Below are positions 1 through 32,788 of a stretch of DNA of 40,910 nt, piece after piece. The stretch lies in contig JACQZJ010000155.1 of assembly GCA_016213895.1 (NCBI GenBank), positions 12,273 to 53,182 of the forward strand, read 5' to 3'. The notes under the pieces were generated by a model that did no database searches, had not been told where the DNA came from, and was given only the letters and a program-made list of their open reading frames with translations. Position 1 is the first letter of the stretch. Each line of letters begins with the position of its first letter. Both the position numbers and the translations under genes were made by a program. The stretch comes from Planctomycetota bacterium (lineage in GTDB: Bacteria > Planctomycetota > B15-G4 > JADJEK01).

Positions 1-1
1 G

Positions 2-1717: not shown

Positions 1718-1739
1718 CGGCGCCGGACTGGGCCTCTTC

Positions 1740-2807: not shown

Positions 2808-2867
2808 AGGGCAGGGCGCCCGGCCGCGCGCCCTGGATTTGCGCGGGGCCGGGCCCAGGGCGTCGGC

Positions 2868-2873
2868 TACAAT
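2868..2873 (+). promoter_or_regulatory. Candidate -10 box for the GT2 gene at 2882
   Basis: TACAAT sits in GGCTACAATCC and ends 8 bases before the ATG at 2882. No convincing -35 is visible. If it is used, transcription would begin almost at the start codon and give a leaderless or near-leaderless mRNA. Similar elements precede several other genes here. Confidence 0.4.
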
Positions 2874-2881
2874 CCTGGTTG

Positions 2882-3835
2882 ATGGAGAGAACCACCGAGC
2901 CCGGTCCGACCGCTGGGACGGTCGCGGTCATCCTGAACTGGAACAGGGCGGACGACACCATTCGCTGCGTCGAGGCCCTGCTGCGATCGGCTCCGGCCGC
3001 GCCGCGAATCATCGTGGTGGACAACGGCTCCAGCCAGGGGTCGCGAGACAGCATCCGCGCCCGCTTCCCCGCCTTGCGCCTGATCGAGGCCGGGCAGAAC
3101 CTCGGCTTCGCCGGCGGCAGCAACCTCGGGATCAAGGCTGCTCTCGCGGCGGGCGCCGAGCGCGTGGTGCTGGTGAACAACGACGTCGAGGTCGATCCGC
3201 GGTGCATCGCCCGGCTCGAGGCCGCGCTGCGGGCGGGCAAGGAGGCGGGCGCGGCCGGACCGATCATCCTCACGGCGCAGAACCACCGCCGCATCTGGGG
3301 GGCCGGCGGCGTGCTCTCGCACCGCGAGAACATCACGCGCCTGCGCGGCTTCGGCCAGGCGCAGAACGGGCGCTTCCGCGAGGACGAGGACGTCGACTAC
3401 CTGCCGGGTTGCGTGCTCATGGTGCGGCGCGAGGTGTTCGAGAAGGTCGGGCTGCTCGAGGAGTCCTTCTTCTGCTACATGGAGGACGTGGACTTCGGGC
3501 GGCGCTTGCTCGACGCCGGCTACAGGAACCGCTTCGTCGCCGGCGCCATCGCCTACCACGACGCATCGTCCTCGACCGGCGGCGGCTACACGCCGGCGCG
3601 CAAGTACATGAACGCCGTCAACTCGGTGCACTTCCTGCGCCGCCACGGCACCTGGAAGGCCTGGCTGGGCTTCCTCCTCTTCGACATCCTCGGCCTGCCC
3701 GGCGCGTTCGCGGTCGCGACGATGCAGGGCCGGCCGCTCGCCGCGTTCGCCAAGATGCGCGGCATCATCGACGGGCTCAGGGGCGTGCGCGTGACGCCCG
3801 AGCGCGTCGCGCGCTACGTACGCTCATCGCGATGA
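2882..3835 (+). CDS. GT2 family glycosyltransferase (rhamnosyltransferase-like)
   Basis: Family 2 glycosyltransferase of 317 residues. It shows AVILNWNRADDT, IIVVDNGSSQGS, NLGFAGGSNLGI and the metal-site region LVNNDVEVDP, followed by FCYMEDVDFGRR, the ED motif of this group. The NWN and NNDV pattern is common in WbbL/RgpB-like rhamnosyltransferases, but that does not fix the sugar. The frame is open far upstream; ATG 2882 is chosen because conserved sequence begins there and a candidate -10 lies just before it. Its stop codon overlaps the next start (ATGA at 3832-3835), so the two genes are likely translationally coupled. Confidence 0.87.
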   Translation: MERTTEPGPTAGTVAVILNWNRADDTIRCVEALLRSAPAAPRIIVVDNGSSQGSRDSIRARFPALRLIEAGQNLGFAGGSNLGIKAALAAGAERVVLVNNDVEVDPRCIARLEAALRAGKEAGAAGPIILTAQNHRRIWGAGGVLSHRENITRLRGFGQAQNGRFREDEDVDYLPGCVLMVRREVFEKVGLLEESFFCYMEDVDFGRRLLDAGYRNRFVAGAIAYHDASSSTGGGYTPARKYMNAVNSVHFLRRHGTWKAWLGFLLFDILGLPGAFAVATMQGRPLAAFAKMRGIIDGLRGVRVTPERVARYVRSSR

Positions 3836-5235
3836 AACTGCTGCAGGTCCTGCACTTCTTCCTGCCGCGCCATTCGGCCGGGACGGAGGTGTACACGGAC
3901 GGCGTGGCGCGCACGCTGCGCGAGCGCGGGCACGAGGTGCACCTCTTCTTCACCGACAAGGTCCTGTCGGAGCCGAACTACCGCCTGGTGCAGCGCCGGC
4001 ACAAGGGGATGCAGTGCCACGTCGTGATCAACAACCTGCTCTACGGCTCTTTCGTCGAGACCTTCCTCAACGAACCGGTGGAGCAGGCCTTCGCCCGCGT
4101 CCTGGAGGAGGTGCGCCCGGACGCGGTGCATTTCCAGCATCTCATGCTGCTCTCCATGCGCCTGCCCGAGATCGCCGCCCGGCGCGGCATCCCGACGCTC
4201 TTGACGCTGCATGACTTCTGGCTCTACTGCGCGCGCTTCGGCCAGCTCATGGAGCGCGGCGAGAAGGTCTGCCCCGGACCGGCGCCGCGGCGCTGCGCCG
4301 CGTGCATCACCGATTTCAAGTTCGCGCAGTCGCCGCTCGAGAAGCGCGTGATCTCGGCCATCCGCTGGACCAAGGAGGTGGCCGGTTTCGACCTGGCGCC
4401 GGTGGTGGACGCGTGGCGCGGCAGCCGTCTGGCGGGCGCGGCGCGCCTCCTGCCGCGGCGAGCGCGCGCCGAGGCCGGCGCGAGCACGGCCGCGGCCGGG
4501 CTGGAGGACGGCTTCCGCCTGCGCGCGCGCGCGCTCGCGGACATGCTCCCGCACCTCGACCTCATCCTCTCGCCGTCCAACACGGTGCGCGATCTGGTGG
4601 TCTCCTTCGGCTTGCCGGCGGAGCGCGTGGAGGTGGTGCCCCTCGGCATCCAGGGAATCGACCTGCCCGGGCCGAGACCATCATTCGCGGGCCGGGACCC
4701 GGTGTTCGGCTTCATCGGCACCATCTCGCCGCACAAGGGCGTGCACGTGGCGGTGGAAGCCATGCGCTACTTGAAGGGCCGCGGCGAGCTGGTCATCTTC
4801 GGCCGTCCCGACTTCTACCCGTGGTACGTCTCGAGCCTGCGCCCCTGGACCGAGAAGCTGCCGATCCGCTTCGCGGGCTCCGTGCCGCGCGGCCGCATCG
4901 GCGAGGCCTTCGGCTCCATCGACGTGCTGGTCGTGCCGTCCATCTGGCTCGAGAACTTCCCGATCAGCATCCAGGAGGCGCGCGCGGCGCGCGTGCCGGT
5001 GGTGGCCTCGAACCTGGGCGGCATGGCCGAGGCGGTGAGCCACGGCGTGGACGGCCTGCTGTTCGCCGCCGGGGACGCGCAGGACCTGGCGCGCCAGCTC
5101 GCCACGCTCATCCGCGAGCCCGAGCGCATCGCGGCCATGGCGGAAAACGTCACGCCGCCCATCACGCTCGAGGAGCACGCCAGCGCGCTGGAGGAGCGCC
5201 TGGGGCGGCTGGTCGCGGCCCGGCGCGGGGCGTGA
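3832..5235 (+). CDS. GT4 family glycosyltransferase with four-cysteine insert
   Basis: GT-B fold glycosyltransferase of 467 residues. The N-terminal domain has HFFLPRHSAGTEVYTDGVA and VHFQHL. Next comes LHDFWLYC (C133) followed by three more cysteines in the spacing C-x13-C-x7-C-x2-C, which suggests a bound metal. The C-terminal donor domain begins at FGFIGTISPHKG, carries the EX7E motif in WLENFPISIQE, and has the NLGGMAEAV phosphate-binding region. This is a retaining, NDP-sugar-dependent transferase of the GT4 family. Its ATG overlaps the stop of the preceding GT2 by 4 bases. It ends the first glycan operon and converges on a PhzF-like gene. Confidence 0.88.
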   Translation: MKLLQVLHFFLPRHSAGTEVYTDGVARTLRERGHEVHLFFTDKVLSEPNYRLVQRRHKGMQCHVVINNLLYGSFVETFLNEPVEQAFARVLEEVRPDAVHFQHLMLLSMRLPEIAARRGIPTLLTLHDFWLYCARFGQLMERGEKVCPGPAPRRCAACITDFKFAQSPLEKRVISAIRWTKEVAGFDLAPVVDAWRGSRLAGAARLLPRRARAEAGASTAAAGLEDGFRLRARALADMLPHLDLILSPSNTVRDLVVSFGLPAERVEVVPLGIQGIDLPGPRPSFAGRDPVFGFIGTISPHKGVHVAVEAMRYLKGRGELVIFGRPDFYPWYVSSLRPWTEKLPIRFAGSVPRGRIGEAFGSIDVLVVPSIWLENFPISIQEARAARVPVVASNLGGMAEAVSHGVDGLLFAAGDAQDLARQLATLIREPERIAAMAENVTPPITLEEHASALEERLGRLVAARRGA

Positions 5236-5317
5236 GGCGGGCGCGGCTCGACCTCGGCCTCAGCGCGACTTCGCCCCGACCTGGATGAAGGCGCCGATCC
5301 GGCCGTTCCAGGGCCCA

Positions 5318-6121
5318 TCAGCGCGAATCCGGCTCGAGCAGCTCGCCGCGCCAGACCGTGACCGCCTGGCCCTTGAGCAGGACGCGCTCCCCGCGCACTT
5401 CGACGCCGACGACTCCGCCGCGCGCCGAGGCCTGGAAGCCGACCAGCTCGCGCTTCTCGAGCGACGCGGACCAGTAGGGGCCGAGGGCGCAGTGGGCCGA
5501 TCCGGTCACCGGGTCCTCGTTGACGCCGACCCGCGGCGCGAAGAAGCGCGAGACGAAGTCGAACTCCGGCGACGCGGAGCGGCTGGTGACGATGACGCCC
5601 CGCGCTTCGACCAGGCCGAGGGCGCCGAAGTCGGGACGTGCCTGGCGCACCGCTGCATCTCCCTCGACCTCCAGCAGGTAGTCGAAGCGATTCCTGCCGA
5701 CCCGGACGGGAGAGATGCCGACGGCCTCGACCAGGCCGCGCGGCGGCTCCGCCGCCTCGGCTGGCGTCGCGGGAAAGTCGAGGACGATCCGTCCGCCCTG
5801 CCGCTCGGCGGTGAGCACGCCGCTCCTCGTGAAAAAGCGCGCCGGCTGGTCCGCGGGGAGCTCGCCCGTCTCCCACAGCACGTGGGCCGAGGCCAAGGTG
5901 GCGTGTCCGCACAGTTCCACCTCGACCGCCGGCGGGAACCAGCGCAGGTCGTAGCCTCCGTCGCGCCGCACCAGGAACGCGGTCTCGGAGAGGTTCATCT
6001 CACGGGCGACGAGCTGCATCCAGCGCTCGTCCCGCGGCTCGGGCAGCAGCATGACCGCGGCCGGGTTGCCCGAGAAAGGCCTGGCGGTGAACGCATCGAC
6101 CTGGTGAATCGCGAGCCCCAT
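5318..6121 (-). CDS. PhzF family isomerase/epimerase
   Basis: PhzF-family protein of 267 residues, close to the usual 260-300. The start HQVDAFTARPFSGNPAAV is the family signature. E46 in NLSETAFL matches the catalytic glutamate of PhzF. ELCGHATLASAHVL and DPVTGSAHCALGPYW form the second half of the symmetric active site. The frame extends 34 residues upstream, but conservation begins at the ATG at 6121. In Pseudomonas PhzF isomerises an intermediate of phenazine synthesis; most homologues, like this one, lie outside phenazine clusters and have no known substrate. It converges on the GT4 gene and is divergent from the secreted protein at 6278. Confidence 0.9.
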   Translation of the reverse strand: MGLAIHQVDAFTARPFSGNPAAVMLLPEPRDERWMQLVAREMNLSETAFLVRRDGGYDLRWFPPAVEVELCGHATLASAHVLWETGELPADQPARFFTRSGVLTAERQGGRIVLDFPATPAEAAEPPRGLVEAVGISPVRVGRNRFDYLLEVEGDAAVRQARPDFGALGLVEARGVIVTSRSASPEFDFVSRFFAPRVGVNEDPVTGSAHCALGPYWSASLEKRELVGFQASARGGVVGVEVRGERVLLKGQAVTVWRGELLEPDSR

Positions 6122-6277
6122 GTCCGCCTCCGCTGCCTGCGGGTGCTCGTGAGCGGCGGCTTCAGTCTGCGGGATGGCGGCGGGATTGCCAGTCAGGAAC
6201 TCGCGAATCGGCGCCACCGGCATGCCGGGAAGCCGGTTGAGACGCCGAGGAAACCAGGAAGCCGAGAGGTGCGAGCC

Positions 6278-8509
6278 ATGCGCGGAACCGTCCTGCCGTC
6301 CTTCTTCCTTGTCGCCGCGGTCTGGCCGGGCGCGCTTTTCGCCCAGAACCTGCTGGCGAACCCCGGTTTCGAGACAGGAGGGGGGGCGCCCGCGGGATGG
6401 TCGACCTGGCCTCCTGCTCCTCCCGGCGTCGCCTACGTCTGGTCGAGCTTCGCCCCCTGCTCGGGCAGCCGGTGCGTCGAGATCTCCGCCGCCACGACTT
6501 CCCTCGGCATGTGGCGGCAGGAGCTGCCGGTGACGGGCGGAGCGCTCTACACCTACTCCGGGTGGATCGAGACCGAGAGCATCGCTTCAGGAGGCGAATG
6601 CACCTTGCAGGCGGTGTTCCGCAACAGCAGCAACGCCATCCTCGAGTTCGTCGACCTGGGCTCCCACGACGGCACGATCACGCCCTGGATGTTCGACTTC
6701 CCGCACGTGAAGCGGGTGCGGGCGCCGCAGGGCGCCGTCAAGGTCGAGGTGAATCTCTACCTCCAGGGTCCGGGAAAGGCGCGCTTTGACGACGTGTTTT
6801 TCGGGCCGTGCGAGACGGGGACCATCTTCGGCCACGCCAGCAACGGAGCCGGGCCCATCGCCGGCGCCGAGATCGAGCTGTGGGGAACCGATAGCAAGGT
6901 CTACTCCGACGCGAACGGCCTGTTCCTCGTCCCCGGCGTGCCGGACGCGTCCCCGCGCTGGAATCTGATCGTGAGGGCGCCCGGGTACCGGGACGCAACC
7001 CTGGGCGGTGTCGACGTGGCCGCGGGCGAGTCGGCGCAGGTCTGCGTCGTGCTGCGCCCTGGGACGAATCCTGCCGACACGAACATCTGCCTCAGGGCGG
7101 GACGGCTGCACCACGCCGCGCAGTCGGCGCCCGCGACGGTCGATCCGACCGCCGTCATCGACCCGAGCATCTACCCTTCTCATGTCCTGCCCTTCCTCGC
7201 CAGCGACCCGTACATCGACTCCGACTCGCTGGAGGTGCAGGCGGTCGCGCAGGAGATCCTGGCGGGCGTCCCTCCCAGCCAGGCCACGAACCTGCAGGCC
7301 GTGTCGCACGCCGCCTACTTGTGGATCGCGCGGAACATCGAGTACGACGTCGTCTATTCCACGCAGAACTACATCGATCCCACCTCGGGCATGTGGCAGA
7401 CGATCTCGGGCGAAGGCTGGTGCTGGGGGCGGAACTTCACCGACTGGCTGTACACGCCGTCCGAGATGCTGCGCGAGAAGCGCGGAATCTGCATCGAGCA
7501 CGGCCGGCTGGGAACGGCGATTCTGCGCGCCCTGGGCATCCCCGCGCGTCCCATGGTGGGGCACGCGACCATGTTCTGGGTCGAGCCCCCGTCCGGGCAG
7601 GGCTGGTGGACGGCGATGTCGACCAGCGGCGGGCGCGCCGCCTACCGCGATCACGGCGACACCGCGTCCGCCTACGGCACGCTTCAGCCGTCCGCCCTCC
7701 ATCACGCCGCGCTCGACGCCGGGCCGGTGATCCACTCCGACTGGGAGTGCGCGCGGCCCGGGCTCTGGCGCGAGATTCACCCGTGGGGCGAAGGCTACCC
7801 TGACACGCCGGCCGGCCAGGCCCAGGCGCTCGCCGACCTCGCCGCCTTCGCCGCCTCGGGCAGCGCGCCGCAGGGCGTGCCGCACGCTCCCGGCGCCGCG
7901 TACGAGATCTCCTACTCCGACGTCACCATCGACCTTCGCAACGTCGGCCGGCAGCGCTCCCTGACGGCGCGCTTCCCTTTCGCCATGACCACGGCGGTCG
8001 TCACCGACCTGGGGAACCACGCCTGGTGGAGCGACCACCACGAGTGCGTGACGGGAACGTGGATCACGACCGAGAGCAACAGCGTGGAGTCGCGGAACTG
8101 GCTCAACCTGGCAGTCGACCTGACCCCGGTTCTCGGCCTCCCCGAGCCCGAGACCTGCGACGTCAAAGCGAACGGAGCGGACGAGGGCATCACCGTCACG
8201 CCGGGCACCTGGGTCACGTTCACGGTCAGCCTCGACGCGGCGGGCGTCGCTCCCGGTCCCCAGGACTGGTGGATCACCATTGCTTCGCCTTTCGGCTGGT
8301 TCCACGCGATTGGCGTCAACCTCTGGCAGTACGGCGCGGCGCCGGTGTACCAGGGCGCGGCGTTCGACCTGCCGGTCGAGGTCCCGATCCTCGACGTCCC
8401 GTCGCTGCCGGCGGGCACGTACACGCTCTTCTTCAGCCTGGACGCCGCCGACGGCGTTCCCCAGGGCACTCACACGGATTCCGTGAGCGTGACGGTGGAG
8501 GGTCCCTGA
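6278..8509 (+). CDS. Secreted transglutaminase-like multidomain protein
   Basis: A 743-residue exported protein. Residues 1-22 form a signal peptide ending ALFAQ. Residues 24-178 begin NLLANPGFETGG and resemble a CBM4/9-type carbohydrate-binding beta-sandwich. Residues 181-260 look like a carboxypeptidase-regulatory (CarboxypepD_reg) domain, with SDANGLFLVPG and VRAPGYRDA. The transglutaminase-like core lies around 335-450: KRGICIEHGRLGTAILRALG gives the nucleophile C405, and GHATMFWVE probably gives H429, but the usual downstream aspartate is not obvious. The last 120 residues (VKANGADEGITVTPG to TDSVSVTVEG) form a further beta-sandwich. The protein may process peptides or cross-link material outside the cell. 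The start is preceded by GAGAGGTGCGAGCC. No partner gene is obvious. Confidence 0.82.
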   Translation: MRGTVLPSFFLVAAVWPGALFAQNLLANPGFETGGGAPAGWSTWPPAPPGVAYVWSSFAPCSGSRCVEISAATTSLGMWRQELPVTGGALYTYSGWIETESIASGGECTLQAVFRNSSNAILEFVDLGSHDGTITPWMFDFPHVKRVRAPQGAVKVEVNLYLQGPGKARFDDVFFGPCETGTIFGHASNGAGPIAGAEIELWGTDSKVYSDANGLFLVPGVPDASPRWNLIVRAPGYRDATLGGVDVAAGESAQVCVVLRPGTNPADTNICLRAGRLHHAAQSAPATVDPTAVIDPSIYPSHVLPFLASDPYIDSDSLEVQAVAQEILAGVPPSQATNLQAVSHAAYLWIARNIEYDVVYSTQNYIDPTSGMWQTISGEGWCWGRNFTDWLYTPSEMLREKRGICIEHGRLGTAILRALGIPARPMVGHATMFWVEPPSGQGWWTAMSTSGGRAAYRDHGDTASAYGTLQPSALHHAALDAGPVIHSDWECARPGLWREIHPWGEGYPDTPAGQAQALADLAAFAASGSAPQGVPHAPGAAYEISYSDVTIDLRNVGRQRSLTARFPFAMTTAVVTDLGNHAWWSDHHECVTGTWITTESNSVESRNWLNLAVDLTPVLGLPEPETCDVKANGADEGITVTPGTWVTFTVSLDAAGVAPGPQDWWITIASPFGWFHAIGVNLWQYGAAPVYQGAAFDLPVEVPILDVPSLPAGTYTLFFSLDAADGVPQGTHTDSVSVTVEGP

Positions 8510-8593
8510 CCGCGCGCGATCGGCGCTTGCGGCGCAAACGGGCCGCCCTTCCGGGCCGGCGGGGCGCTATCGTGACCTGCCGAGGCGGCCGGC

Positions 8594-9991
8594 ATGAAGA
8601 TCGTCCACGCGGTGCACGGGTATCCCCCTGAGCTGATCGGCGGCACTGAGCTGTACGTCGAGCGGCTCGCGCGCGAGCAGGCGGCCGCGGGCCACCATGT
8701 CCTGGTTTTCTCCGGCTCGGTGGACTGGCGCGAGGAGTTCACGGTCGAGGAGGGCGAGCAGGACGGCGTGGCCGTGGTGCGCGCGCACCGGAACGACCTC
8801 TACTTCGACCGCTGGGACAAGGGCTACAACCCGCTGGTCGCCGTGCTCTTCGAGCGCGTGCTCGCCGCGGAGCGGCCCGACGTCCTGCATGTGCACCAGT
8901 GGATCCGTCTGACCACGAACCTGGTCTCGATCGCCGCGCGGCTCGGCGTGCCGGCCGTGATCACGGCGCATGACCTCTACGCGAGCTGCCCGCGCGTCTT
9001 CCGCCTGAAAGGCAAAGACGAGGATCAGGCCTGCGAGCTGGAGATGAGCCCGGAGGCGTGCGTCTCCTGCGTGCCGCGCTGGCGCTTCCAGAAGGACGAG
9101 GAGGTGTCGGCCAGCATCGCGAGCTACCGGGAGGACATGCGCCGCGAGCTCGATCTGGCGCGGGCCATCGTCGCGCCGAGCCGCTCGCACGGCGAGTTCC
9201 TGGCGCGCATGCTGGGCGGCGGCGTGCGCGAGATCCGCGTCGTGCCGCACGGCACGTTGGCTGAGAGCGGCGCGCGCCACGCGGCCCGCGCCGTCGCCGC
9301 GGGGAAGATCCAGCTCGCCTGCTTCGGGCATCTCCACCCCTGGAAGGGCGCACACGTCCTGCTCGAGGGGTTGGCGCGCTGCGCCCGCAAGGAACGCTTC
9401 ACTCTGCACCTGCACGGCAAGTTCTCGGGCGTGGAGTACGGCGCGCGGCTCGAGCAGCTCGCCGAGGGAAGCGACGTGGTCTTCCACGGCGCCTACTCAC
9501 CCCGCGACCTGGAGCGCGCGGCCATCGACGTGGTGGTCATTCCCACGCTCTGCCGCGAGTCCTACTCCTTCATCCTGGACGAGGCGGTTCTGCTCGGCGT
9601 GCCGATCTTGGCGGCGCGCGCCGGGGCGATCACCGAGCGCGCCACCGGCCGCGTGCTGCTCTTCGAGCAGAACGACCCGGCCGACCTGGCGCGGAGGCTC
9701 GAGGAGATCGCCGGCGATCCGGGCCTGCTCGCGGCCATGCGCGTCGCGCCGCCGCCCGCGCTCGTCTCCTTCGCCGAGCACGCCGGGCGCATCGAGGAGG
9801 TCTACCGGGGCGTGGCGGCCGCGGGAGCGCCCGCGCCGCCGCCCGCGGCGGACGAGCGCGAGCGCCTCGCCGAGCAGTGGGAACGGCGCGAGACCCTGTT
9901 CCGCGAGCTGGTGCGCATCGAGCGCTGGGAGGACGTGGTCGCCGAGCTGCGCGCGCGCGTGGCCGAGCTCGAGGCGCGGCTGCACGGGTGA
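8594..9991 (+). CDS. GT4 family glycosyltransferase
   Basis: GT-B glycosyltransferase of 465 residues, standing alone. The N-terminal domain has VHGYPPELIGGTELYVERLA and VLHVHQW. The four-cysteine segment follows AHDLYASC with spacing C-x14-C-x8-C-x2-C. The donor domain has CFGHLHPWKGAHVL and an EX7E motif in CRESYSFILDE. The C-terminal tail from about residue 415 is charged and probably helical or coiled coil (EQWERRETLFRELVRIE). CGAGGCGG before the ATG may serve as a ribosome binding site. It converges on the TPR gene at 10011. It presumably joins the same glycan pathway as the GT4 genes elsewhere in the window, but the separation makes that inference. Confidence 0.86.
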   Translation: MKIVHAVHGYPPELIGGTELYVERLAREQAAAGHHVLVFSGSVDWREEFTVEEGEQDGVAVVRAHRNDLYFDRWDKGYNPLVAVLFERVLAAERPDVLHVHQWIRLTTNLVSIAARLGVPAVITAHDLYASCPRVFRLKGKDEDQACELEMSPEACVSCVPRWRFQKDEEVSASIASYREDMRRELDLARAIVAPSRSHGEFLARMLGGGVREIRVVPHGTLAESGARHAARAVAAGKIQLACFGHLHPWKGAHVLLEGLARCARKERFTLHLHGKFSGVEYGARLEQLAEGSDVVFHGAYSPRDLERAAIDVVVIPTLCRESYSFILDEAVLLGVPILAARAGAITERATGRVLLFEQNDPADLARRLEEIAGDPGLLAAMRVAPPPALVSFAEHAGRIEEVYRGVAAAGAPAPPPAADERERLAEQWERRETLFRELVRIERWEDVVAELRARVAELEARLHG

Positions 9992-10010
9992 TGGGGGGGG
10001 GCGCGAGCGC

Positions 10011-10961
10011 TCAGCTCATGCGGCGCAGGTGCGTGATGCGCCCGAAGAGGCGCGGCTCGCTCGCGGTGCGTGACTCGTAGAGCTCGATGACGCGCTCTAC
10101 CTGGCCGGTGCGCCGCGCCGCGGTCTCCATGGCGGTCTCCAGCTTCGCGTCCCTGGCGCCGGCGGCGCTGGCGTCGAGGAAAAGGTCGAGCGCCAGGTCG
10201 TAGACCTGCAGCTTGTAGCACACCCAGGCGACGCGCGTGCGCGTGCGCTCGTCGAAGCGGCCGCGGCGGCCGGCCACGAACGCCCGTGCCTCCTCCGTCC
10301 GGCCGCTCCTGAGCAGCGTGTCGCAGAACTCGGGCAAGAGGTCGGGCGCGACCGGCTCGTCGAGATCGAGCAGCGCCTGCACCTCCGCGACCAGGCGCGC
10401 GGGCTCGGCCAGGCGCGCGCGCAGCCTGAGCCGCTGGCCGAGCGCGGCTTGATCCTCGGGGAAGGCCAGCAGGTAGGACTCGACCGCCTCGAGGGCGCGC
10501 TCCGGCTGCTCCTGCCGTTCGTACAACCAGGCGAGGTCCTTGAAGCAGCGCTTCTCCGCCGGCAGGAGCGCGAGCAGCCTGGCCTCCGCCTCCGCGAAGC
10601 GGCCGAGCTGCGTCAAGGTCGCGCCTATCAGGCGGCTGGTCCACCGGTCCTCGAACAGGCGGTTGCTTTCCTCGTAGCGGCCGAGCGCGGTCTCGTAGTC
10701 GCGCACCGCGTACGCCGCGCGGCCGCCGAGAAGCTGGATGCGCGCCGAACCCGGGAACTGGCCCGCGAGCTGGCGCGCCAGCGCCGCTGCCTCGCTGTTG
10801 CGGCCGCTGGCGAGAAGCAGCTCGAGACGCAGCCCGCGCGTCTCCACGGCCAAGGGATCCTCGGCCTCGAGCCGCTCCAGCGCCTCGGCGGCTGCATCAA
10901 GCTCGCGCGCGCGGATGCGGCGCGTCACTTCAGCGCGCAGGACATGGACGATGGCACTCAT
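10011..10961 (-). CDS. Tetratricopeptide-repeat-like protein
   Basis: A 316-residue helical-repeat protein without a signal peptide or membrane segment. It carries degenerate TPR-type repeats with the A/G/Y-rich spacing (GGRAAYAVRDYETALGRYEE, LAWLYERQEQPERALEAVES, LYESRTASEPR). Such proteins act as protein-protein scaffolds. It is divergent from the large ATPase/PglZ-like gene at 11039 with 77 bases between the start codons, so the two may share a regulatory region. That is the only hint of partnership. No enzymatic domain is seen. Confidence 0.75.
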   Translation of the reverse strand: MSAIVHVLRAEVTRRIRARELDAAAEALERLEAEDPLAVETRGLRLELLLASGRNSEAAALARQLAGQFPGSARIQLLGGRAAYAVRDYETALGRYEESNRLFEDRWTSRLIGATLTQLGRFAEAEARLLALLPAEKRCFKDLAWLYERQEQPERALEAVESYLLAFPEDQAALGQRLRLRARLAEPARLVAEVQALLDLDEPVAPDLLPEFCDTLLRSGRTEEARAFVAGRRGRFDERTRTRVAWVCYKLQVYDLALDLFLDASAAGARDAKLETAMETAARRTGQVERVIELYESRTASEPRLFGRITHLRRMS

Positions 10962-10984
10962 CGCGCCGCGACAGCGCTCCTGTC

Positions 10985-10993
10985 TGGTAGATT
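10985..10993 (+). promoter_or_regulatory. Candidate extended -10 for the ATPase/PglZ-like gene
   Basis: TGGTAGATT matches an extended -10 element (TG-n-TAGATT). It lies 45 bases before the GTG at 11039, with the ribosome binding site GAGGAAAGGA (11021-11030) in between. No clear -35 is visible. Confidence 0.4.
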
Positions 10994-11038
10994 CCCAAAT
11001 GACAGAACTTCCAAGACCTCGAGGAAAGGACGCCCGCA

Positions 11039-14000
11039 GTGCCCGCTCCAGAGCGCATCCGCGATCTCGTGGACGTCCTGGCCCATCCCACCGTGATCCG
11101 CCTGGAGCACCTGCGCGGCGGGGACGCGGGGTGGATCACGGCATCTTACTACACGACGCCAGAGGTGGAGGGCCACCTTTCCGGCCTGCGCCACGCCCTC
11201 GCCGCCGAGAGCGGCTGCGGCGTGTTCCTCATCGGCCAGTACGGCTCGGGCAAGTCCCACTTCCTGGCCTACGTCACGCAGAACCTCGAGGCCGGGCGGC
11301 TGCTTCCGGGCGGGCCGGAGGTGGCCGCGCTCTCGCTTCTCAACTTCCGCGGCGCCACGCGCCTCGAGGACGTCGTCGGCGACGTCCTGGGCATCGCCGC
11401 CGGCGCCGAACGCGATCGCCGCGCCGGCTGGGAGCGCATGCAGCAGGGCCACCCGCGCGGCCTGCTGCTCGTCATCGACGAGCTGTCGGAGTTCCTGCGC
11501 TCCAAACCGGACCGGCGCGCCTTCAGCGAGGACGTGCGCTTCCTGCAGTACATGGGCGAGTGGTGCCAGGGAGCGCGCTTCTGGGTGCTGTGCGGCATGC
11601 AGGAGCAGATCGAGCACGCGGGCGACCTCGAGCACGGCCTGTACCGCAAGATCAAGGACCGCTTCCCGCTGCGCTTCCTGCTCACGCCCGCGCACGTGCG
11701 CGAGCTGGTGCAGCACGCCGTCCTGGTGCGGCGCGAGGGCTGCGCCGAGGCGGCGCGGCGCTGCGCCGCGGAGGCGCGCGAGGCGCTGCCGTTCCTCGAG
11801 ATCGATGCGCAGGGGATCGCCGACTTCTATCCCATCCACCCGGCCACGCTCGACCTGCTCGAGGAAGTGCGCGACTGCTTCTCGCAGAGCCGCGGCGTCG
11901 TCGACTTCTGCGTGACGCGGCTGCGCGGCGACGCGGCGCGCGGCGTGCCGCCGTTCCTCGATCGGCCCTGGGGAGATCTGCTCACGCCGGAGTGCATCGT
12001 CGATCACTTCCGCGACCTGCTTGAGGTGCAGGCCGAGTTCCTGCCGCTCGCGCAGCGCGTGCTCCCCTGGTACGAGAAGAACCTCGCCGGGCTGTTCGAG
12101 CGCGACGCCCTGGCGGACCTGGCGCGCCGCCTGCTGCATCTCCTCGTGCTCGTCCACCTCGCCCCCGGGCGCGAGCGGTTGACCGCGCAGGAGGCGGCGA
12201 GCTGGCTGCTCTACCGCGCGTCGCGCATCGACCCGGAGAAGAACCTCTCGGTCATCGCGCGCGTGCTCGACACGCTGGCCGCGCGCGGGCGCTACGTGGT
12301 GCAGGACGGCGGCGGCTACCGCATCGACGCGGCCGAGGACGACGCCGAGGAGTTCGAGCGCAGGCTCAAGCGCGAGGCGGACGAGTGCGAGACCATGGGC
12401 GAGGGCGTGTTCGATGCTCTGGCGCCGTTGCTCGCCGGGCGCGCGTTCGATCCGTTCTCGTTGCCGCGCGACGAGGTGCAGAACCGCTCGCTGCGCTGGT
12501 TCTTCCATGAGCGTCGCTACGCCGTCTTTTCCGGCAACGGCCTGATCCCTTCGGCCAACGTGCCTTTGCTGGTGCTGCGCCTGTGCTGGGGCGACGCGCT
12601 GCCCGGGCCGGGCGCACTCAACGTGCTGCCCGCGCGGCTCGCGCCCGAGCGACGGCACTACGAGCTGGCCGCGTTGCGCCGGCTCGCCGAGGGGCGCTGG
12701 AGCGAGGAGACGCGACGCCGCCTGGCGGCGCGCGTGGCGGAGAAGGTCGCGGCTTTCGAAGGCGAGGTCAGGGCGGCGCACGCCGAGTGCACGGTGGTGG
12801 ACGCGGCCGGCCGCAAGCAGGAGATCAACGCCGCGGCCAAGACCTTCGACGAGTTCCTGGCGCGGCACGCCGCGCTGATCTTGCAGCGCATCTACCCGGC
12901 GTTCGAGCGCTTTGCCCCGGGGCACGGCCCGCTGCCCAAGGAGGCGCAGCGCCGCTTCGCCGACTTCGCCCTGGCGCAGGAGATGAGCGCCGAGTCGGCG
13001 GACGAGTACGTGAACCTCATCCGCGAGGCGTACCTGGTGCCGATGAAGCTGCTGGTGCGGCGCGGGCGCGGCTACGCCGCGCCGCCGAACGTGGAGAAGA
13101 ACGAGCTGGTGCGCCTGGTCATGCCGCTGCTCGAGCACAAGCCGGCGCCCGAGACCGTGTTCGCGCACCTCGCCCAGCCGATCTACGGGCTCGTGCCCGA
13201 TCAGGCTCATCTGCTGCTGCTGTTCCTCCTGGCCGCGGGCGAGCTGGACGTGGTGAAGCAGGGGAAGTCCTACCGGGAGCTGTACGCGCTCCTGCCGGAC
13301 ATGCGCCAGTACGACCGCGTGGTGGCGGTCAAGGGTCTCGGCGCCGAGGCGCTGCGCGGCCTTGCCGACCTCTGTTCGGGCCTGAGCCTGCGCGTCCCGC
13401 CGCAGTGGACGGTCGCCGCCCAGCGCCGCTCCGTGGAGCGCCTGCGCGTGACCGGGCGCGAGCTGGCCGCGTGCGTCGAGCCGCTGGTGCTGGCGCTTCA
13501 GAGCCGCGGCGGCGGGGAGAAGCTCGTGGAGCGGCTCGCGCGGCTGCTCGAACAGTGGCGCGCGCTCGAGGCCGGCGCGGACCTGCTCGCCGCCTTCGAG
13601 CAGTTCCTCTACGGCGTCCAGCCGGTCGAGCGCTTCGTGCGCGAGACCATCGGGGCGCGCGAGCTGCCGGGCCGCATCGAGCGGCTGATCGCCGAGGTCG
13701 AGCGCCATCGTCACGTCTTCGCCTTGCTGCCGCGGCCGGAGGCCGGCGCCGCCCAGCCGGCGCTGCCGTGCGACGACCCGGGCGAGCCGCCGGGCATGGA
13801 CCAGATCGCGGCGCTCGAGGAATGGCTCAAGCAGGCGCAGGCCGCGTACGAGCGCTACCGCGGCGAGTACCGCAAGCGTCACGACGCCTACTGGCGTGCG
13901 CTCGACGAAAGCCCGGCCTGGCGCTACCAGCCGCCGCCCGCGGCGCGCAGCCGCCACGCCGGCCTGGAGACCGAGCTGCGGGCGCTCGCCGAGGCGCGCG

Positions 14001-15340
14001 CCAAGGCCGCCGGTCTGCGCTGCCGCGGCCTCGTCGACCTGCACTTCCAGCCGTTCTGCCGCTGCGGTTTCGACGGCGCCGCGGCGCCGGTCGACGCCGA
14101 GCTGCAGCGCATCCAGGAGGCGCAGGCCGGCATCGAGATCGGGCTGCGCCGGTTCTTCGGGCAGGAGCGGGTCAGGGAGCAGGTGCGCGCCTTGAAGGAC
14201 GAGGGGCTCCTGACCGGACCGGCCGCGCTCGCGTATCTGCGCGGTGAGGCGCCGTGCCCGGAAGTGACGGACGTCGAGCGCCTCGACCGCCAGCTCGCGG
14301 GCGTGGAGCTGGTCAAGCCGCTGCGCGCCGACCTCTTGTTCGCTCGCCTCGCCGGCCGCAGCTTCGACCGCCAGGAGCTCTGCGCCGCGATCGAGGCGCT
14401 CTTCGACGGCGTCGCCGGCGAGTCCGGCAGGGTGCGCTTCGACCTCGAGACCACGGACGGCGGGGAGGTGGCGGCCTGGTGCCTCGCCCAGGCTTTGCGC
14501 CACGGTGTGCCCCTGCCGCGCGGCCTGCGCGCCGAGGATCTCGCCGCTGCCGCGGAGCTCATCCGTCCTGACCGGGTGGGCGAGGCGGCCCTGCGCCGGC
14601 TCGACCGCCTCGGCTTGGGCGAGGCCGCGCTCGCGCGCGTCACGCGCTACCTGATCGAGGGGCAGGTCCCGGCGCCGGCGCCCGCTGCCGAGGATGCGCC
14701 CCTCCTGGCGGCGGCGCGCGAGCTGGTCGCGCCGCACGCGCCCGCGGACGCCGCCGCGCTGGCGCAGCTCGCGGCCGTGCTCTACGGCGCGCACGCGCGC
14801 ATGTGGAGGATCGCGGGCGAGCGCTGGCTCGCGCGTCTCGACCAGTTGGCCGAGACGCGCCTCGATGTCGTCCCGGACGACCTGGCCGTGGTGCTCGAGG
14901 GCCTGCGCGAGCGGCAGTGGCTGATCATCGATTGCCTGGGGCTCCCCCTGACGCCGCTCCTGCTGGACGACCTGCGCGAGATCCTCGGCCAGTGGCGCCT
15001 GGAGCAGACGGTGTACGCCTTGGTCTCGACCGAGTCGAGCACGGACGCCTGCTGGCGCAAGCTGATCGACGCCGGCCTGGTCCGCTCCTGCGAGAAAGTG
15101 GACGCGATCGACCGCCTGATCCACGGGCGCTCCGAGGCGCTCGACGACATGGCGCGCCTCGCGGCCGCGGAGCTGCGCATCGCCTGCCGCGGCGCGCTCA
15201 GGCGCCTGGACGCGACGCGGCCGCTCGCCGTGTTCGCGGACCACGGCTTCCGCCTGCAGCGCGACGGCCGCGCGTTCGGCCACGGCGGCGCTTCCACGCT
15301 GGAGCGCGTGGTGCCGGTCTTGCTGCTCGCTCCGGCGTAG
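11039..15340 (+). CDS. BrxC/DUF6079-like P-loop ATPase fused to PglZ-like C-terminal domain
   Basis: A 1433-residue protein. The Walker A motif is GQYGSGKSH (G66-S73) and the Walker B motif is LLLVIDELSEF (D147, E148). The following YRKIKDRFPLRF is the sensor-like region seen in the BrxC/PglY and DUF6079 ATPases of phage-defence loci. The middle is long and helical, with a possible zinc site at C995, C1007 and C1009. The last 150 residues resemble the alkaline-phosphatase-like PglZ fold: LIIDCLG (D1298), VFADHGF (D1401, H1402) and GHGGAS (H1415) occur in the order and spacing of metal ligands, followed by a short hydrophobic strand ending the protein. The GTG start has GAGGAAAGGA eight bases upstream. 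The neighbours are a TPR protein and a DUF4332-like membrane protein. No PglX methyltransferase, BrxA, BrxB or BrxL is present. A role in defence or nucleoprotein remodelling is inference. Confidence 0.75.
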   Translation: MPAPERIRDLVDVLAHPTVIRLEHLRGGDAGWITASYYTTPEVEGHLSGLRHALAAESGCGVFLIGQYGSGKSHFLAYVTQNLEAGRLLPGGPEVAALSLLNFRGATRLEDVVGDVLGIAAGAERDRRAGWERMQQGHPRGLLLVIDELSEFLRSKPDRRAFSEDVRFLQYMGEWCQGARFWVLCGMQEQIEHAGDLEHGLYRKIKDRFPLRFLLTPAHVRELVQHAVLVRREGCAEAARRCAAEAREALPFLEIDAQGIADFYPIHPATLDLLEEVRDCFSQSRGVVDFCVTRLRGDAARGVPPFLDRPWGDLLTPECIVDHFRDLLEVQAEFLPLAQRVLPWYEKNLAGLFERDALADLARRLLHLLVLVHLAPGRERLTAQEAASWLLYRASRIDPEKNLSVIARVLDTLAARGRYVVQDGGGYRIDAAEDDAEEFERRLKREADECETMGEGVFDALAPLLAGRAFDPFSLPRDEVQNRSLRWFFHERRYAVFSGNGLIPSANVPLLVLRLCWGDALPGPGALNVLPARLAPERRHYELAALRRLAEGRWSEETRRRLAARVAEKVAAFEGEVRAAHAECTVVDAAGRKQEINAAAKTFDEFLARHAALILQRIYPAFERFAPGHGPLPKEAQRRFADFALAQEMSAESADEYVNLIREAYLVPMKLLVRRGRGYAAPPNVEKNELVRLVMPLLEHKPAPETVFAHLAQPIYGLVPDQAHLLLLFLLAAGELDVVKQGKSYRELYALLPDMRQYDRVVAVKGLGAEALRGLADLCSGLSLRVPPQWTVAAQRRSVERLRVTGRELAACVEPLVLALQSRGGGEKLVERLARLLEQWRALEAGADLLAAFEQFLYGVQPVERFVRETIGARELPGRIERLIAEVERHRHVFALLPRPEAGAAQPALPCDDPGEPPGMDQIAALEEWLKQAQAAYERYRGEYRKRHDAYWRALDESPAWRYQPPPAARSRHAGLETELRALAEARAKAAGLRCRGLVDLHFQPFCRCGFDGAAAPVDAELQRIQEAQAGIEIGLRRFFGQERVREQVRALKDEGLLTGPAALAYLRGEAPCPEVTDVERLDRQLAGVELVKPLRADLLFARLAGRSFDRQELCAAIEALFDGVAGESGRVRFDLETTDGGEVAAWCLAQALRHGVPLPRGLRAEDLAAAAELIRPDRVGEAALRRLDRLGLGEAALARVTRYLIEGQVPAPAPAAEDAPLLAAARELVAPHAPADAAALAQLAAVLYGAHARMWRIAGERWLARLDQLAETRLDVVPDDLAVVLEGLRERQWLIIDCLGLPLTPLLLDDLREILGQWRLEQTVYALVSTESSTDACWRKLIDAGLVRSCEKVDAIDRLIHGRSEALDDMARLAAAELRIACRGALRRLDATRPLAVFADHGFRLQRDGRAFGHGGASTLERVVPVLLLAPA

Positions 15341-15347
15341 CCGCGGC

Positions 15348-16706
15348 CTATTGCCCCGCGTGCGCCCGCGCGGCCTGCACCCAGACCTGCACGCGCTGCG
15401 GCCGCACGCGCTCGCCGCGCTCGCCGAGAGCGGAGAGCGCGGCGTACAACTCGTCCGGGTCGCTCGCGGCGAGCGCCTCCACCGATGCGACTCCGGCCTG
15501 GCCCAGGAGGCAGGCGTTGCACGTGCCGATGCCGCGCAGGTCGGCGAGGCGCGCCTCGGCCACGAGCCGTTCGATGCGCGCCGGGTCGTCCATGAGGCGG
15601 CGCGCCAGCTCTGCGACGCCGCCCGGCGCGTCCGCCGCCGCGATGAGGTCCCTCACGTCCCCGAGGCCGAAGAGCTCGAGCGAGGCGGTCTCGCGCCGGT
15701 TGGCGCAGGAGAGGCCGGAGACGCGCGGCGAGGTCGAATCGACGCTCTGCGACTCGAGGCCGGCGATGGCGCAGAGGCTGAGGGCGCTCACCAGTGCGGG
15801 CAGGCCGAGCAGCCGCGCCGCCGGATGGAGGCGCGCGGCCGTTGGCCCGCCCACGCCGCGCTCGCAGGGGACCGAGAGACCGAGGATCTCGAGGGCGCGC
15901 GCGCAGGCATAGGCCTCGAGCGCGAAGGGCAGGAAGCCGAGGAAGCCAAGCGGCGGCATCTCCACGCCCGGCGTCCGGTCGAACAAGGGCACGGTGTAGA
16001 TCCAGCGCGCGCGCGCGAGCACGTTCATCATCTCCCAGAAGAGGCCGCAGCAGAGGCCGGCGGCGAGCAGCCGCAGCAGGCGACCGGGCCGGCCGCGCTC
16101 CAGGTCGCGCAAGAGCGACGGCCAGCCGGGGCGGCGGTTGAACGGCTCGAGCAGCAGGAAGAGGAAGAGCCAGACCAGGGGGTAGCAGAGGCGCGGCAGG
16201 AGCAGCGGCAGGGCGAGGCAGAGCGCGCCTGCCGCGAGGAGGGCGCGCAAGACGGCGGGCCCGGCGCGGAAGCGCGGGGTGCGCGCCCGCTCGAAGCAGC
16301 CGTGGGCAGAGAGCAGGTCGTAGACCTCGAACAGGCCGGGCAGCACGGTGGCGAACGAGAGCACCAGGAAGACGCGCCCCGCCAGGAGATGCGGCGGCGC
16401 GTTGACGTAGTACCAGTTCTCGAGGCGCAGGTTCAGCGCCTCGAACAGCAGCCAGAAGGGAAGCGACCAGCCGAGCAGGCAAAGGAGCGCCAGCGGCCGG
16501 CCGGTGAGCAGAGAGGTGCCGCTCTTTCGCACCACCAGGGCGTCGACCACGAGCAGCGCCGGATACCAGGCGAGCACGTAGAAGTAGGTCGGGACCGGCT
16601 CCACCTCGAGCAGGGCGAGGGCGACGCAAAGGAAAAGGAGGACCACACCGGCCAGGCCGTGCTGGCCCTGCCGCAGCCTCTCAGCGATGTGCAGGCGGAT
16701 CGCCAT
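15348..16706 (-). CDS. Polytopic membrane protein with C-terminal helix-hairpin-helix (DUF4332-like) domain
   Basis: A 452-residue protein with about nine predicted membrane segments in residues 15-330 (for example GLAGVVLLFLCVALALL, FLVLSFATVLPGLFEV). After the last segment the chain turns soluble. The C-terminus contains LADLRGIGTCNACLLGQAGV and VEALAASDPDEL, matching the tandem helix-hairpin-helix DUF4332 type found in nucleic-acid-binding proteins. The frame is open up to 16829, but ATG 16706 is chosen because GGAGGG lies five bases before it. It converges on the large ATPase gene, leaving seven bases. The combination of membrane and HhH parts is unusual and its function unknown. Confidence 0.75.
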   Translation of the reverse strand: MAIRLHIAERLRQGQHGLAGVVLLFLCVALALLEVEPVPTYFYVLAWYPALLVVDALVVRKSGTSLLTGRPLALLCLLGWSLPFWLLFEALNLRLENWYYVNAPPHLLAGRVFLVLSFATVLPGLFEVYDLLSAHGCFERARTPRFRAGPAVLRALLAAGALCLALPLLLPRLCYPLVWLFLFLLLEPFNRRPGWPSLLRDLERGRPGRLLRLLAAGLCCGLFWEMMNVLARARWIYTVPLFDRTPGVEMPPLGFLGFLPFALEAYACARALEILGLSVPCERGVGGPTAARLHPAARLLGLPALVSALSLCAIAGLESQSVDSTSPRVSGLSCANRRETASLELFGLGDVRDLIAAADAPGGVAELARRLMDDPARIERLVAEARLADLRGIGTCNACLLGQAGVASVEALAASDPDELYAALSALGERGERVRPQRVQVWVQAARAHAGQ

Positions 16707-16766
16707 CACCCTCCGCGCGACGCGCACGCCATCATCCGTCAGGGGGCTCTGGTTCTCAAGCGGGCG

Positions 16767-16775
16767 TGCTACTCT
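16767..16775 (+). promoter_or_regulatory. Candidate extended -10 upstream of the broken GT4 gene
   Basis: TGCTACTCT fits the extended -10 pattern seen at other genes in the window. It lies 34 bases before the TTG start at 16810, with GGAG in between at about 16796-16799. The promoter and ribosome binding site therefore look intact even though the gene is not. Confidence 0.35.
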
Positions 16776-16809
16776 GGCGCGCATTCGTTCGACCGCGGAG
16801 CCGCCTCCG

Positions 16810-17636
16810 TTGCGCATCCTGCAGGCCATCCACGACTTTCTGCCCGACCACTCTGCGGGTTCGGAGATCTACACCTACCACCTGGGACAAGCGCTCGCCG
16901 CGCGCGGCAACGACGTGCGCCTGCTCTTCACCGAGAAGCGGCTCGAGCGCCCGCAGTTCGAGGTGACCGCGGGCAGCCGCTACGGCCTGCGCTTCCACGA
17001 GATCGTCTACAACCGGCACTTCTTCGACGTCGCCGACCTCTACGACGATCCGCGCATGGAGGCGCCGATCGGCGCGGTTCTCCGCTCGCGAGGGTCGAGC
17101 GCGCGGCCGGCGCGCCCCTGCGCTTGGGCTACCTCGGCACGCTCGCCGACTACAAGGGCGCGCACCTGGCGGTGGAGGCCTTCCAGCGCCTGCGCCCCGG
17201 CGAGGCGACGCTCCGCATCAAGGGCGAGACCGCGTGGTTCAAGGACTACACCGGGCCGCTCCTGGAGCAGGCGCTGGGGATCTCCGGGCTGACGTTCGAG
17301 GGGGCCGTCCTTCCGGGCGAGGGCTACCGCTTCCTGGCCGAGGTGGACGTGCTGCTCGTCCCGTCGCTCTGGTACGAGAACTCGCCGCTCACCATCCACG
17401 AGGCCTTCCAGACGGGCGTGCCCGTGGTCGCCACGGACCTCGGCGGCATGGCCGAGCTGGTGGAAAAGGGCGGCGGCCTGCTCTTCCGGCAGAACGACGC
17501 CGCGGACCTGCACCGCTCCCTGCGGCGTCTGCTGGACGAGCCCGGCCTGGTCGCCGCGCTCCGGCGGTCGATCCCGGCGGTCAAGTCCATCGAGGAGAAC
17601 GCCGCCGAGATGGAGGCGCTCTACCTCGAGGACTGA
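16810..17636 (+). pseudogene. GT4 glycosyltransferase broken by internal deletion and frameshift
   Basis: Two halves of a GT4 gene lie in different frames. The first (16810 to about 17092, TTG start) encodes LRILQAIHDFLPDHSAGSEI and VRLLFTEKRL, and ends near MEAPIGAVL. The second (about 17093-17636) encodes LRLGYLGTLADYKGAHLAVE, an EX7E motif in WYENSPLTIHE and DLGGMAELV, to a normal C-terminus. In the intact GT4 at 3832 these points are about 275 residues apart; here about 100 residues separate them, so roughly 175 codons are missing. The lost part includes the acceptor-side core and the four-cysteine segment. It is a pseudogene or an assembly collapse between GT4 paralogues. The halves could not make a working enzyme. 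Confidence 0.8.
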
Positions 17637-17659: not shown

Positions 17660-18694
17660 TCAGGGAGCGATCGTGCCGAAGGTGTTGGCGACGTAGACGT
17701 TCGAGCCCGGTGCGGTCTCGTCGTTGAGGTCGAAGCCGCCGCTGCCGCTCGCCCTGTTCTCCATGATGACGTGGCCGCCGCTCTGGACGAGGAGGCCGTC
17801 GTCGGTGGACTTCTTGAGCGTGTTCTTGCGCACCAAGGTCGAGGTAGAGATGTTCGCCAGCAGGATTTCCTCGTACCCAGCGCGTATCACCACGTTCTTC
17901 TCCAGCACACAGGCGCCGCCCCCGTACTGGATCCCGCGCTGGCCGAGCTTCTCGAACTTGTTCCGGGCGATCGTGTGCCCGACCGACCCGTTGGCGACCA
18001 GCAGGCCGCCCAGGGAATCCCGCACGTCGTTGTCCAGGACGGAGCAGTAGAGCGCGTAGAAGTCGGCCTTCTCCACGCGGTTCCCTGAGACCAGGCACAG
18101 GGTGCAACCGTCGCTGGCGTTGCCGAGCCGGATGCCGCACTCCCCGGCCTTCTTCGTGCGATTGCCCTCGATGGTGTTGCCGTTGCCCAGAACACGGATG
18201 CCGTTGACCGCGGCGTTCTCGATGCAGCACTTCCGCACACGGCAGCCGTCGCCGTCGATCTCGATCCCCTGGTCGCCGGCGCCATCGATGGAGCACTTGT
18301 CGATCAGCACCCCGGTCGAGTCCGCGATGCCGATGCCGTCCGTGCCGAGGTTCTCGAGCTTGCATTTGGCGATGGTGATCTGGTCCGAGAACTGGACGGA
18401 GATGCCCTCGGCACCCGAGTTCCTGATCTTGAGCGCGGCCGTGGGCCCCAGGCCTGCCGCGTCGATCGTGACCTTGTGCCCGCTCTTCGCGCGGATGGTC
18501 AGGTCGAGCGCGCCGTCGATGAGCACGTTCTCGTGGTAGACGCCCTGGGAGATCTCGATCACGTCGCCGGCTGCTGCCGCGTTGACCGCCGCCTGGATCG
18601 TGGCGTGGTCGCCGGGCACCTTGATCTTGCCCGCCTCGGCGTTGGCGCAGGTCAGCATGGCGGACAGAGCGAGACAGAAGCAGCGGAAACTCAT
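17660..18694 (-). CDS. Secreted right-handed parallel beta-helix protein
   Basis: A 344-residue exported protein. Residues 1-20 form a signal peptide ([15 protein letters not shown]). Next comes [20 protein letters not shown], the standard entry of pectate-lyase-like and NosD-like beta-helices. About ten PbH1-type coils follow with repeats such as [36 protein letters not shown] and [14 protein letters not shown]. Cysteines recur at similar coil positions. No lyase catalytic arginine or calcium set can be assigned, so it may bind polysaccharide or be structural. It is divergent from EF-G. ATG 18694 is the start that gives the signal peptide. Confidence 0.82.
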
Positions 18695-18756
18695 GGCGTT
18701 CCGCCGCGCCGCGCGCGGCCGAATCCGGGAAGGGTGCGGCGCGATGGCGTACGACA

Positions 18757-18765
18757 TGTTATAAG
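18757..18765 (+). promoter_or_regulatory. Extended -10 for EF-G; TTATAA core may act on both strands
   Basis: TGTTATAAG is an extended -10 element 55 bases before the EF-G ATG. Its TTATAA core is self-complementary, so the minus strand reads CTTATAACA towards the divergent beta-helix gene. It is the most AT-rich spot in the 126-base divergent gap. Confidence 0.45.
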
Positions 18766-18820
18766 TAGGGGTTTGATCACGATTCCCAGGAACCACGGGG
18801 AAGAGTCGGAACGTCCCATC

Positions 18821-20908
<2,088 letters not shown>

Positions 20909-24910: not shown

Positions 24911-24952
24911 AGTTCCAGCATGGCCCCCGCAAGCTGAAGGGCGAACGCCTGC

Positions 24953-27900: not shown

Positions 27901-27901
27901 G

Positions 27902-31503: not shown

Positions 31504-31517
31504 GGTGAGCGCGCCGC

Positions 31518-32669: not shown

Positions 32670-32788
32670 AATCGCGCCTTCCGTACCGCTGAGGAGCGGA
32701 GTGTCAAGTTGAGCGGCCAGCTTGTCGATCGCGTGTGCAGCCTCCCGTGCGGCGCGGCGCGCACGCCTTCCCCGGACTCGGTCAGCGC

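Follow-up and report, generated by a model that had tools for sequence, protein, structure and literature searches.

A BrxC-PglZ fusion protein encoded beside a tetratricopeptide repeat gene is a variant of the BrxC/PglZ kind outside BREX

We describe a two-gene cassette in a 40,910-nucleotide stretch of a Planctomycetota genome (assembly GCA_016213895.1, contig JACQZJ010000155.1, positions 12,273 to 53,182; the whole stretch is referred to below as the window). The larger gene encodes a single protein that joins a BrxC-like ATPase to a PglZ-type domain, and the smaller one, transcribed divergently from it, encodes a tetratricopeptide repeat (TPR) protein. The fusion with its TPR partner is a variant of the BrxC/PglZ kind that stands outside bacteriophage exclusion (BREX), and no earlier description of it was found. 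Both halves of the fusion keep complete predicted catalytic sets across phyla, with an intact P-loop, in an alignment of 28 relatives.

Two enzymes in one chain

The fusion gene has the top coding score of its region and is preceded, ~10 bases 5' of its start codon, by the Shine-Dalgarno-like sequence GAGGAAAGG. An antisense open reading frame (ORF) of 1441 amino acids (10958-15283) was rejected as a high-GC shadow of the fusion frame. The first-pass annotation of this DNA had proposed that one chain carries both a BrxC/DUF6079-type ATPase and a PglZ-type domain, a proposal now borne out by profiles, AlphaFold 2 (AF2) models and fold matches. The Walker A and B motifs at residues 66-74 and 145-152, and the residues D1298, D1401/H1402 and H1415, all lie where they had been placed. 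Four of the seven catalytic positions had thus been recognized, while T1335 and the D1358-x3-H1362 pair had been overlooked. Since the motif residues are invariant in 28 diverse relatives, the motifs are not a product of chance. The parts of the gene, all on the forward strand, are as follows.

11039-15340, +: BrxC-PglZ fusion gene, GTG start, open frame, 1433 amino acids
11039-14158, +: BrxC-like part, residues 1-1040, with an AAA+ domain of ORC/Cdc6 type, winged-helix and alpha+beta regions and a coiled-coil
11234-11260, +: Walker A GQYGSGKSH, residues 66-74; G66, G69, G71, K72, S73 and H74 invariant in 28
11471-11494, +: Walker B VIDELSEF, residues 145-152; D147 to F152 invariant in 28, D147 and E148 included
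14021-14065, +: C995 and C1007-x-C1009 near the end of the coiled-coil, invariant in 28, candidate metal-binding tip
14261-14908, +: helical linker, residues 1075-1290, from the AF2 model
14915-15337, +: PglZ-like domain of the alkaline-phosphatase superfamily, residues 1293-1433, from alignment, AF2, Foldseek and a profile-profile match
14930-14932, +: D1298, predicted first metal-ligand Asp, invariant in 28, aligned to the family-B DG motif
15041-15043, +: T1335, predicted nucleophile, invariant in 28, aligned to an invariant family-B Thr
15110-15124, +: D1358-x3-H1362, predicted metal site pair, invariant in 28, aligned to family-B D296/H300
15239-15244, +: D1401 H1402 (ADHGF), invariant in 28
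15281-15283, +: H1415 (HGG), invariant in 28

The N-terminal part matches DUF6079 (PF19557) with E=1.5e-19 and 69.5 bits, against a curated cut-off of 23. PADLOC profiles gave weaker matches to BrxC (7e-14) and to SspC (1e-8), the DUF6079-type ATPase of Ssp/BREX type 4, and the full-length BrxC equivalog of NCBIfam was missed (42 of 400 bits). A profile of the family searched against solved structures retrieved BrxC chains at 7e-8. The AF2 model of residues 1-1044 has a predicted local distance difference test score (pLDDT) of 82.9 with a low global predicted template modelling score of 0.44 and a weak stretch at 266-289; when it was searched with Foldseek, the top four PDB entries were BrxC (E 4.5e-8, prob 1.00), the ones also retrieved by the family profile, followed by Cdc6/ORC, with TM-scores of 0.23-0.43 for the BrxC matches and 13-14% identity to solved BrxC. 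The protein thus resembles BrxC/PglY of BREX in its ORC/Cdc6-type AAA+ domain, its intact Walker motifs, the modelled succession of winged-helix, alpha+beta and coiled-coil regions and its best solved-structure match, but BrxC ends at ~1200-1300 amino acids without a phosphatase domain, where the window protein continues into its PglZ-type domain. The three invariant cysteines may form a metal-binding tip; as a C-x-C also occurs near the end of the canonical BrxC of the same genome, the cluster may be a general feature of BrxC.

The C-terminal half of the claim needed other tests, because on its own this end goes unseen by Pfam (PF08665 stays below its cut-off in all 28 family-A members, the closer relatives described below) and gives only E 0.3, short of the cut-off, with the NCBIfam PglZ model TIGR02687. 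In the alignment of 28 family-A tails, D1298, G1301, T1335, K1353, D1358, H1362, D1401, H1402, G1403, H1415, G1416, G1417 and E1422 are invariant; the succession D, T, D-x3-H, DH, H among them is usual in enzymes of the alkaline-phosphatase superfamily. AF2 modelled residues 1075-1433 with a mean pLDDT of 91.2 in an alkaline-phosphatase-superfamily fold, the structural check that the first-pass annotation had called for. The 17 best PDB matches in Foldseek were all PorX (E 1.9e-5, prob 1.00), and behind them came phosphoglycerate mutase, phosphopentomutase and alkaline phosphatase; TM-scores to PorX are low (~0.3) because PorX carries other domains.

The tails of the second family of relatives, family B, supplied the link to PglZ proper. 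They carry classical PglZ motifs, PF08665 was matched in 8 out of 18 (best 3e-5), and their profile matches PorX at 3.6e-7; a profile-profile comparison of family-A with family-B tails gave prob 98.5 and E 1.8e-15 with all catalytic residues in register. Taken together, the fold match, the family-B link and the registered residues identify the C-terminal domain as a short, divergent PglZ-type domain. Judged by order along the chain, T1335 and H1415 would be the counterparts of PorX T272 and H500, which correspond to T538 and H741 of BREX PglZ, required for nuclease activity (PMC12205998). With BREX PglZ (BrxZ, PF08665) the window protein shares the superfamily core, the catalytic order and a C-terminal HGG-S-x-x-E motif; it differs in lacking both the N-terminal inactive helicase/HTH part and the C-terminal Ig-like domain of that protein (PMC12839542), and in a core shortened to ~140 residues, below the Pfam and NCBIfam cut-offs.

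Unlike PorX, a response regulator with a PglZ domain, the window protein has no receiver domain and carries its PglZ-type domain on a BrxC-like ATPase. The nearness to PorX raises the question of whether the cassette could be a signalling module. Its PglZ-type domain would then break down oligonucleotide signals, cyclic or linear, in the manner of PorX, under regulation by the AAA+ and TPR parts. Both PorX and BREX PglZ cleave cyclic oligonucleotides (PMC12205998). We nevertheless regard this as improbable: the N-terminal 1040 residues resemble the whole of DNA-binding BrxC, the helicases linked to family B point to DNA, and no cyclase gene recurs nearby.

The cassette, its partner and its relatives

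The remaining elements of the cassette in the window are these.

9992-15347, no strand: whole cassette, 5.36 kb; a genome of the same family lacks it at this site and has 15 bp between the flanking genes
10011-10961, -: TPR protein gene, 316 amino acids, Pfam TPR_19 at 6e-11, divergent from the fusion
10962-11038, no strand: intergenic region of 77 bp between the two divergent start codons, holding the Shine-Dalgarno-like sequence before the fusion; a sigma-70 scan gave no sigma-70-like match within it

To collect relatives, a profile seeded with a three-row alignment was run against one genome for each species; a single-sequence scan of genome contigs had given none. Of 134 found, 80 were kept, and all counts are lower bounds because candidates had to share short conserved peptides. 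Family A (38 loci) comprises proteins of ~1430 amino acids, 35-55% identical; full-length relatives match the window protein across residues 6-1432 with 35-50% identity. Its hosts belong to six phyla (Planctomycetota, Gammaproteobacteria, Acidobacteriota, Myxococcota, Gemmatimonadota and Schekmanbacteria) and include the cultured Sulfidibacter corallicola and Acanthopleuribacter pedis. In family B (42 loci) the same fusion measures mostly 1540-1800 amino acids, and its hosts are mainly Deltaproteobacteria, Syntrophomonadaceae and Nitrospirae. Presence is patchy, at about 1-5% of sampled genomes: full-length copies were found in 3 of 392 genomes of the host's phylum, its own included (the other two 49 and 45% identical), family A in 3 of 61 genomes of the Acanthopleuribacter class, and family B in 7 of 147 genomes of the class of locus L103.

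Some further sequences surfaced in the scan. A 116-amino-acid ORF (L021, 17132-17482, +; G305:C106) repeats the last 88 residues of a nearby fusion, with ~51% identity to the window fusion and without D1298 and T1335, and is probably what remains of a tandem duplication. A distant relative (L029, 6863-10246; G048:C588; 1127 amino acids), standing behind a response-regulator gene, has the ATPase part and ends before any PglZ-type domain. Two longer, very divergent relatives in frames of ~2000 amino acids (L026, 9976-15780; L028, 2306-8473) carry the tail motifs VLDGVAPDVW, TTDHG and SHGRGG, and possibly represent a third family. In G261:C307, a C-terminal match falls within a different reading frame of housekeeping-type genes, and we took it for chance.

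The two-gene cassette consists of the fusion and the divergent TPR gene. In family A the TPR gene is upstream and divergent in 35 of 38 loci, in line with the first-pass annotation's suggestion of the divergent TPR protein as a possible partner; in family B it is upstream and co-directional (35 of 42). Among the exceptions, at least L046 and L079 are at contig ends, while L043 and L067 have no TPR gene despite upstream DNA. The window TPR protein, for which PADLOC gave no match, is 43 and 39% identical to its counterparts in two Planctomycetota. Across 20 family-A loci, TPR and fusion distances correlate in a mirror-tree comparison with r=0.81 (permutation maximum 0.47); this agreement indicates that the two genes travel together, and does not prove contact between their products.

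Comparison with genomes related to the host indicates that the site is variable and that both genes come and go as one. In a genome of the same family (G002), the glycosyltransferase gene (window 8594-9991) and the DUF4332/HhH gene (15348-16829) that flank the cassette are neighbours 15 bp apart, with neither TPR gene nor fusion between them. In a genome of the same genus (G001), nucleotide similarity ends at window base 9991 and sets in again at 15344. Its contigs end there, and an inverted 14-mer, AGAGCCTGAGCAGG / CCTGCTCAGGCTCT, is present at both of these ends (L128 end and L129 start; G001:C142/C122); it may be the trace of a repeated insertion element at the cassette site. A third genome (G003) has a different gene of ~2 kb at the site, and none of the seven genomes G001-G007 has a match to the TPR gene. 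At the window copy there is neither an integrase nor repeats to mark it. The empty site agrees with the earlier view of the cassette as accessory cargo.

That view had also enlisted the convergent membrane HhH gene as a possible component. The gene is real (493 amino acids) and flanking only: it has no match in 80 related loci and is present without the cassette in the host's relatives, and was rejected as part of the system. The glycan-gene setting proved peculiar to this genome. Window positions 1-10000 and 24950-33500 hold dense tandem GT4/GT2 glycosyltransferases, a PIG-L deacetylase, a sulfatase and a B12-binding radical-SAM protein; by predicted gene content, a glycan or exopolysaccharide island hosts the cassette. 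An EF-G-like gene (18476-20908, +) stands ~3 kb from the fusion, and EF-G or RF3-type genes occur within ~10 kb of it in L061, L075, L087 and L096, which may be chance.

Relation to BREX and similar systems

The fusion cassette is not a member of BREX. Where BREX has separate brxC and pglZ genes, a single chain is found here. No linked BREX modification gene (PglX/BrxX, or the PAPS reductase of type 4) recurs in 79 loci or occurs among the window genes scanned, and none of the BrxA, BrxB or BrxL-type components is recurrent beside the fusion in those loci. A separate PglZ or BREX partner inside the window was rejected by the scan of its genes, and the whole genome is negative for PF08665. The absence of PglX, BrxA, BrxB and BrxL, pointed out in the first-pass annotation, thus extends from the window to the related loci; its further suggestion of a minimal BREX or defence system fared less clearly, with no BREX modification gene linked and ordinary chromosomal genes as neighbours in 79 loci.

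Elsewhere in the same genome, on a 17-kb contig (C168), a canonical BrxC (L030, 2712-6936, -; 1942 bits to PADLOC PDLC02482) is encoded with BrxF just upstream, a separate BREX-type locus, probably of type 3. This second locus gives some colour to the idea that the cassette is a decayed or reduced BREX whose missing subunits, the methyltransferase among them, are supplied from elsewhere in the genome. We consider it very improbable: the canonical BrxC is separate from the fusion and distant in sequence (32% over 60-279), and conservation of the two genes as a unit extends over six phyla without a linked methyltransferase, which argues for an ancestral design.

Known systems outside canonical BREX come closer in some respects. 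BREX-related (BR) and HerA/FtsK capture systems also use a BrxC-class ATPase and PglZ; unlike the cassette, both encode them as separate genes, the former with a methyltransferase and a helicase, the latter with HerA/FtsK, GNAT and TGT (PMC12839542). Ssp/BREX type 4, with its DUF6079-type ATPase, differs in that no phosphorothioation genes were found linked here. A survey of BREX and its related systems from January 2026 presents BrxC and PglZ as separate genes and other systems of three to seven genes, and mentions no TPR or RecQ partner in its text (PMC12839542). Among open-access full texts, with bioRxiv preprints outside the scope, none joined PglZ, RecQ and tetratricopeptide, or BREX, BrxC and tetratricopeptide, an absence that is not proof.

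Possible function

We tentatively favour the explanation that the cassette is a single-chain BrxC-PglZ DNA machine with a TPR partner, most likely for destroying invading DNA. The AAA+ part would assemble on DNA in an ATP-dependent manner, as BrxC does, and the attached PglZ-type domain would act as a metal-dependent phosphodiesterase or nuclease, cutting DNA once the ATPase is loaded or triggered. The TPR protein may be an adaptor that either senses the trigger or keeps the enzyme inactive until it arrives. The most likely use would be surveillance and destruction of invading DNA by a BREX-related defence cassette. In BREX, BrxC is an ATP-dependent, multimerising DNA binder that contacts BrxB:PglZ (PMC13326643); with both enzymes in one chain, the BrxB bridge would not be needed. 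As no methyltransferase is linked, self and non-self could not be told apart by a mark that the cassette itself makes; the distinction would have to come from DNA structure or from a signal that the TPR protein reads. Speaking for defence are the kinship of both halves, the patchy presence, and gain and loss as a unit.

Several observations weigh against a role in defence, or at any rate lend it no support. Among 241 flanking proteins searched with PADLOC, no enrichment of defence genes was seen near families A and B; most matches were to generic kinases and sigma-54 regulators, the others including one type II methyltransferase and two PDC-S01, and the kinases and sigma-54 activators among the strong matches were not counted as defence. 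Tabulated for defence genes, the neighbours in 79 loci turned out to be ordinary chromosomal genes, with no defence islands; nor were the homologues confined to conserved housekeeping contexts, since contexts vary between loci. The only recurrent neighbours are TPR, RecQ and SNF2 genes, with no methyltransferase and no other gene. Viral contigs and phages yielded no relatives, and plasmids only weak matches to the ATPase region, annotated as BrxC or DUF6079. The gene tree follows the phyla in part (11 label changes, against a minimum of 7 and 17.4 after shuffling), which fits slow movement, or movement often within phyla. To these is added a point on the family-B RecQ genes (e.g. L087, 7605-9998): in 8 of 9 family-B genomes tested, the operon RecQ is the sole RecQ-like match at E<=1e-60.

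The last point, together with the lack of a defence-island context and the partly phylum-ordered tree, favours a different use of the same single-chain machine, namely genome maintenance. In this rival explanation, damaged or stalled DNA would be the site at which the AAA+ part loads, and it would be trimmed there by the PglZ-type domain; RecQ or SNF2 helicases would act as partners, and the TPR protein would serve as a scaffold. In 11 family-B loci the operon indeed encodes a RecQ helicase that has RQC and HRDC domains, and an SNF2-family helicase is a neighbour in five family-B loci and one family-A locus (L063, where it is on the same strand as the TPR gene). On the other hand, a linked helicase is missing from almost all family-A loci, that of the window among them, and a presence as patchy as that described above, with clean presence or absence at one site, is unlike core repair. 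RecQ-like helicases are also found in defence, as DpdF in the Dpd system. We regard genome maintenance as somewhat unlikely, and destruction of invading DNA remains the use that we favour; an anti-phage function is, as a prediction, plausible.

The cassette might, more broadly, represent a separate, methylation-independent class of DNA-targeting systems, a possibility that we raise with some reserve. Such a class would span at least six phyla and two architectures, a TPR gene divergent from the fusion and an operon of TPR, RecQ/SNF2 and fusion. It would place both enzymes in one polypeptide under a TPR sensor and tell self from non-self by DNA structure or a signal, and not by a chemical mark.

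How the BrxC ATPase and the PglZ nuclease cooperate is an open question in BREX, and their natural fusion provides direct evidence from evolution that both act as one machine. It reduces the BREX problem from six or more proteins to one chain and one partner, which can be expressed and mutated. The existence of a BrxC/PglZ pair without any linked methyltransferase implies that self-protection works differently here or that the target differs, and the RecQ/SNF2 link of the sister family raises the question of whether BREX effectors grew out of DNA repair, or into it.

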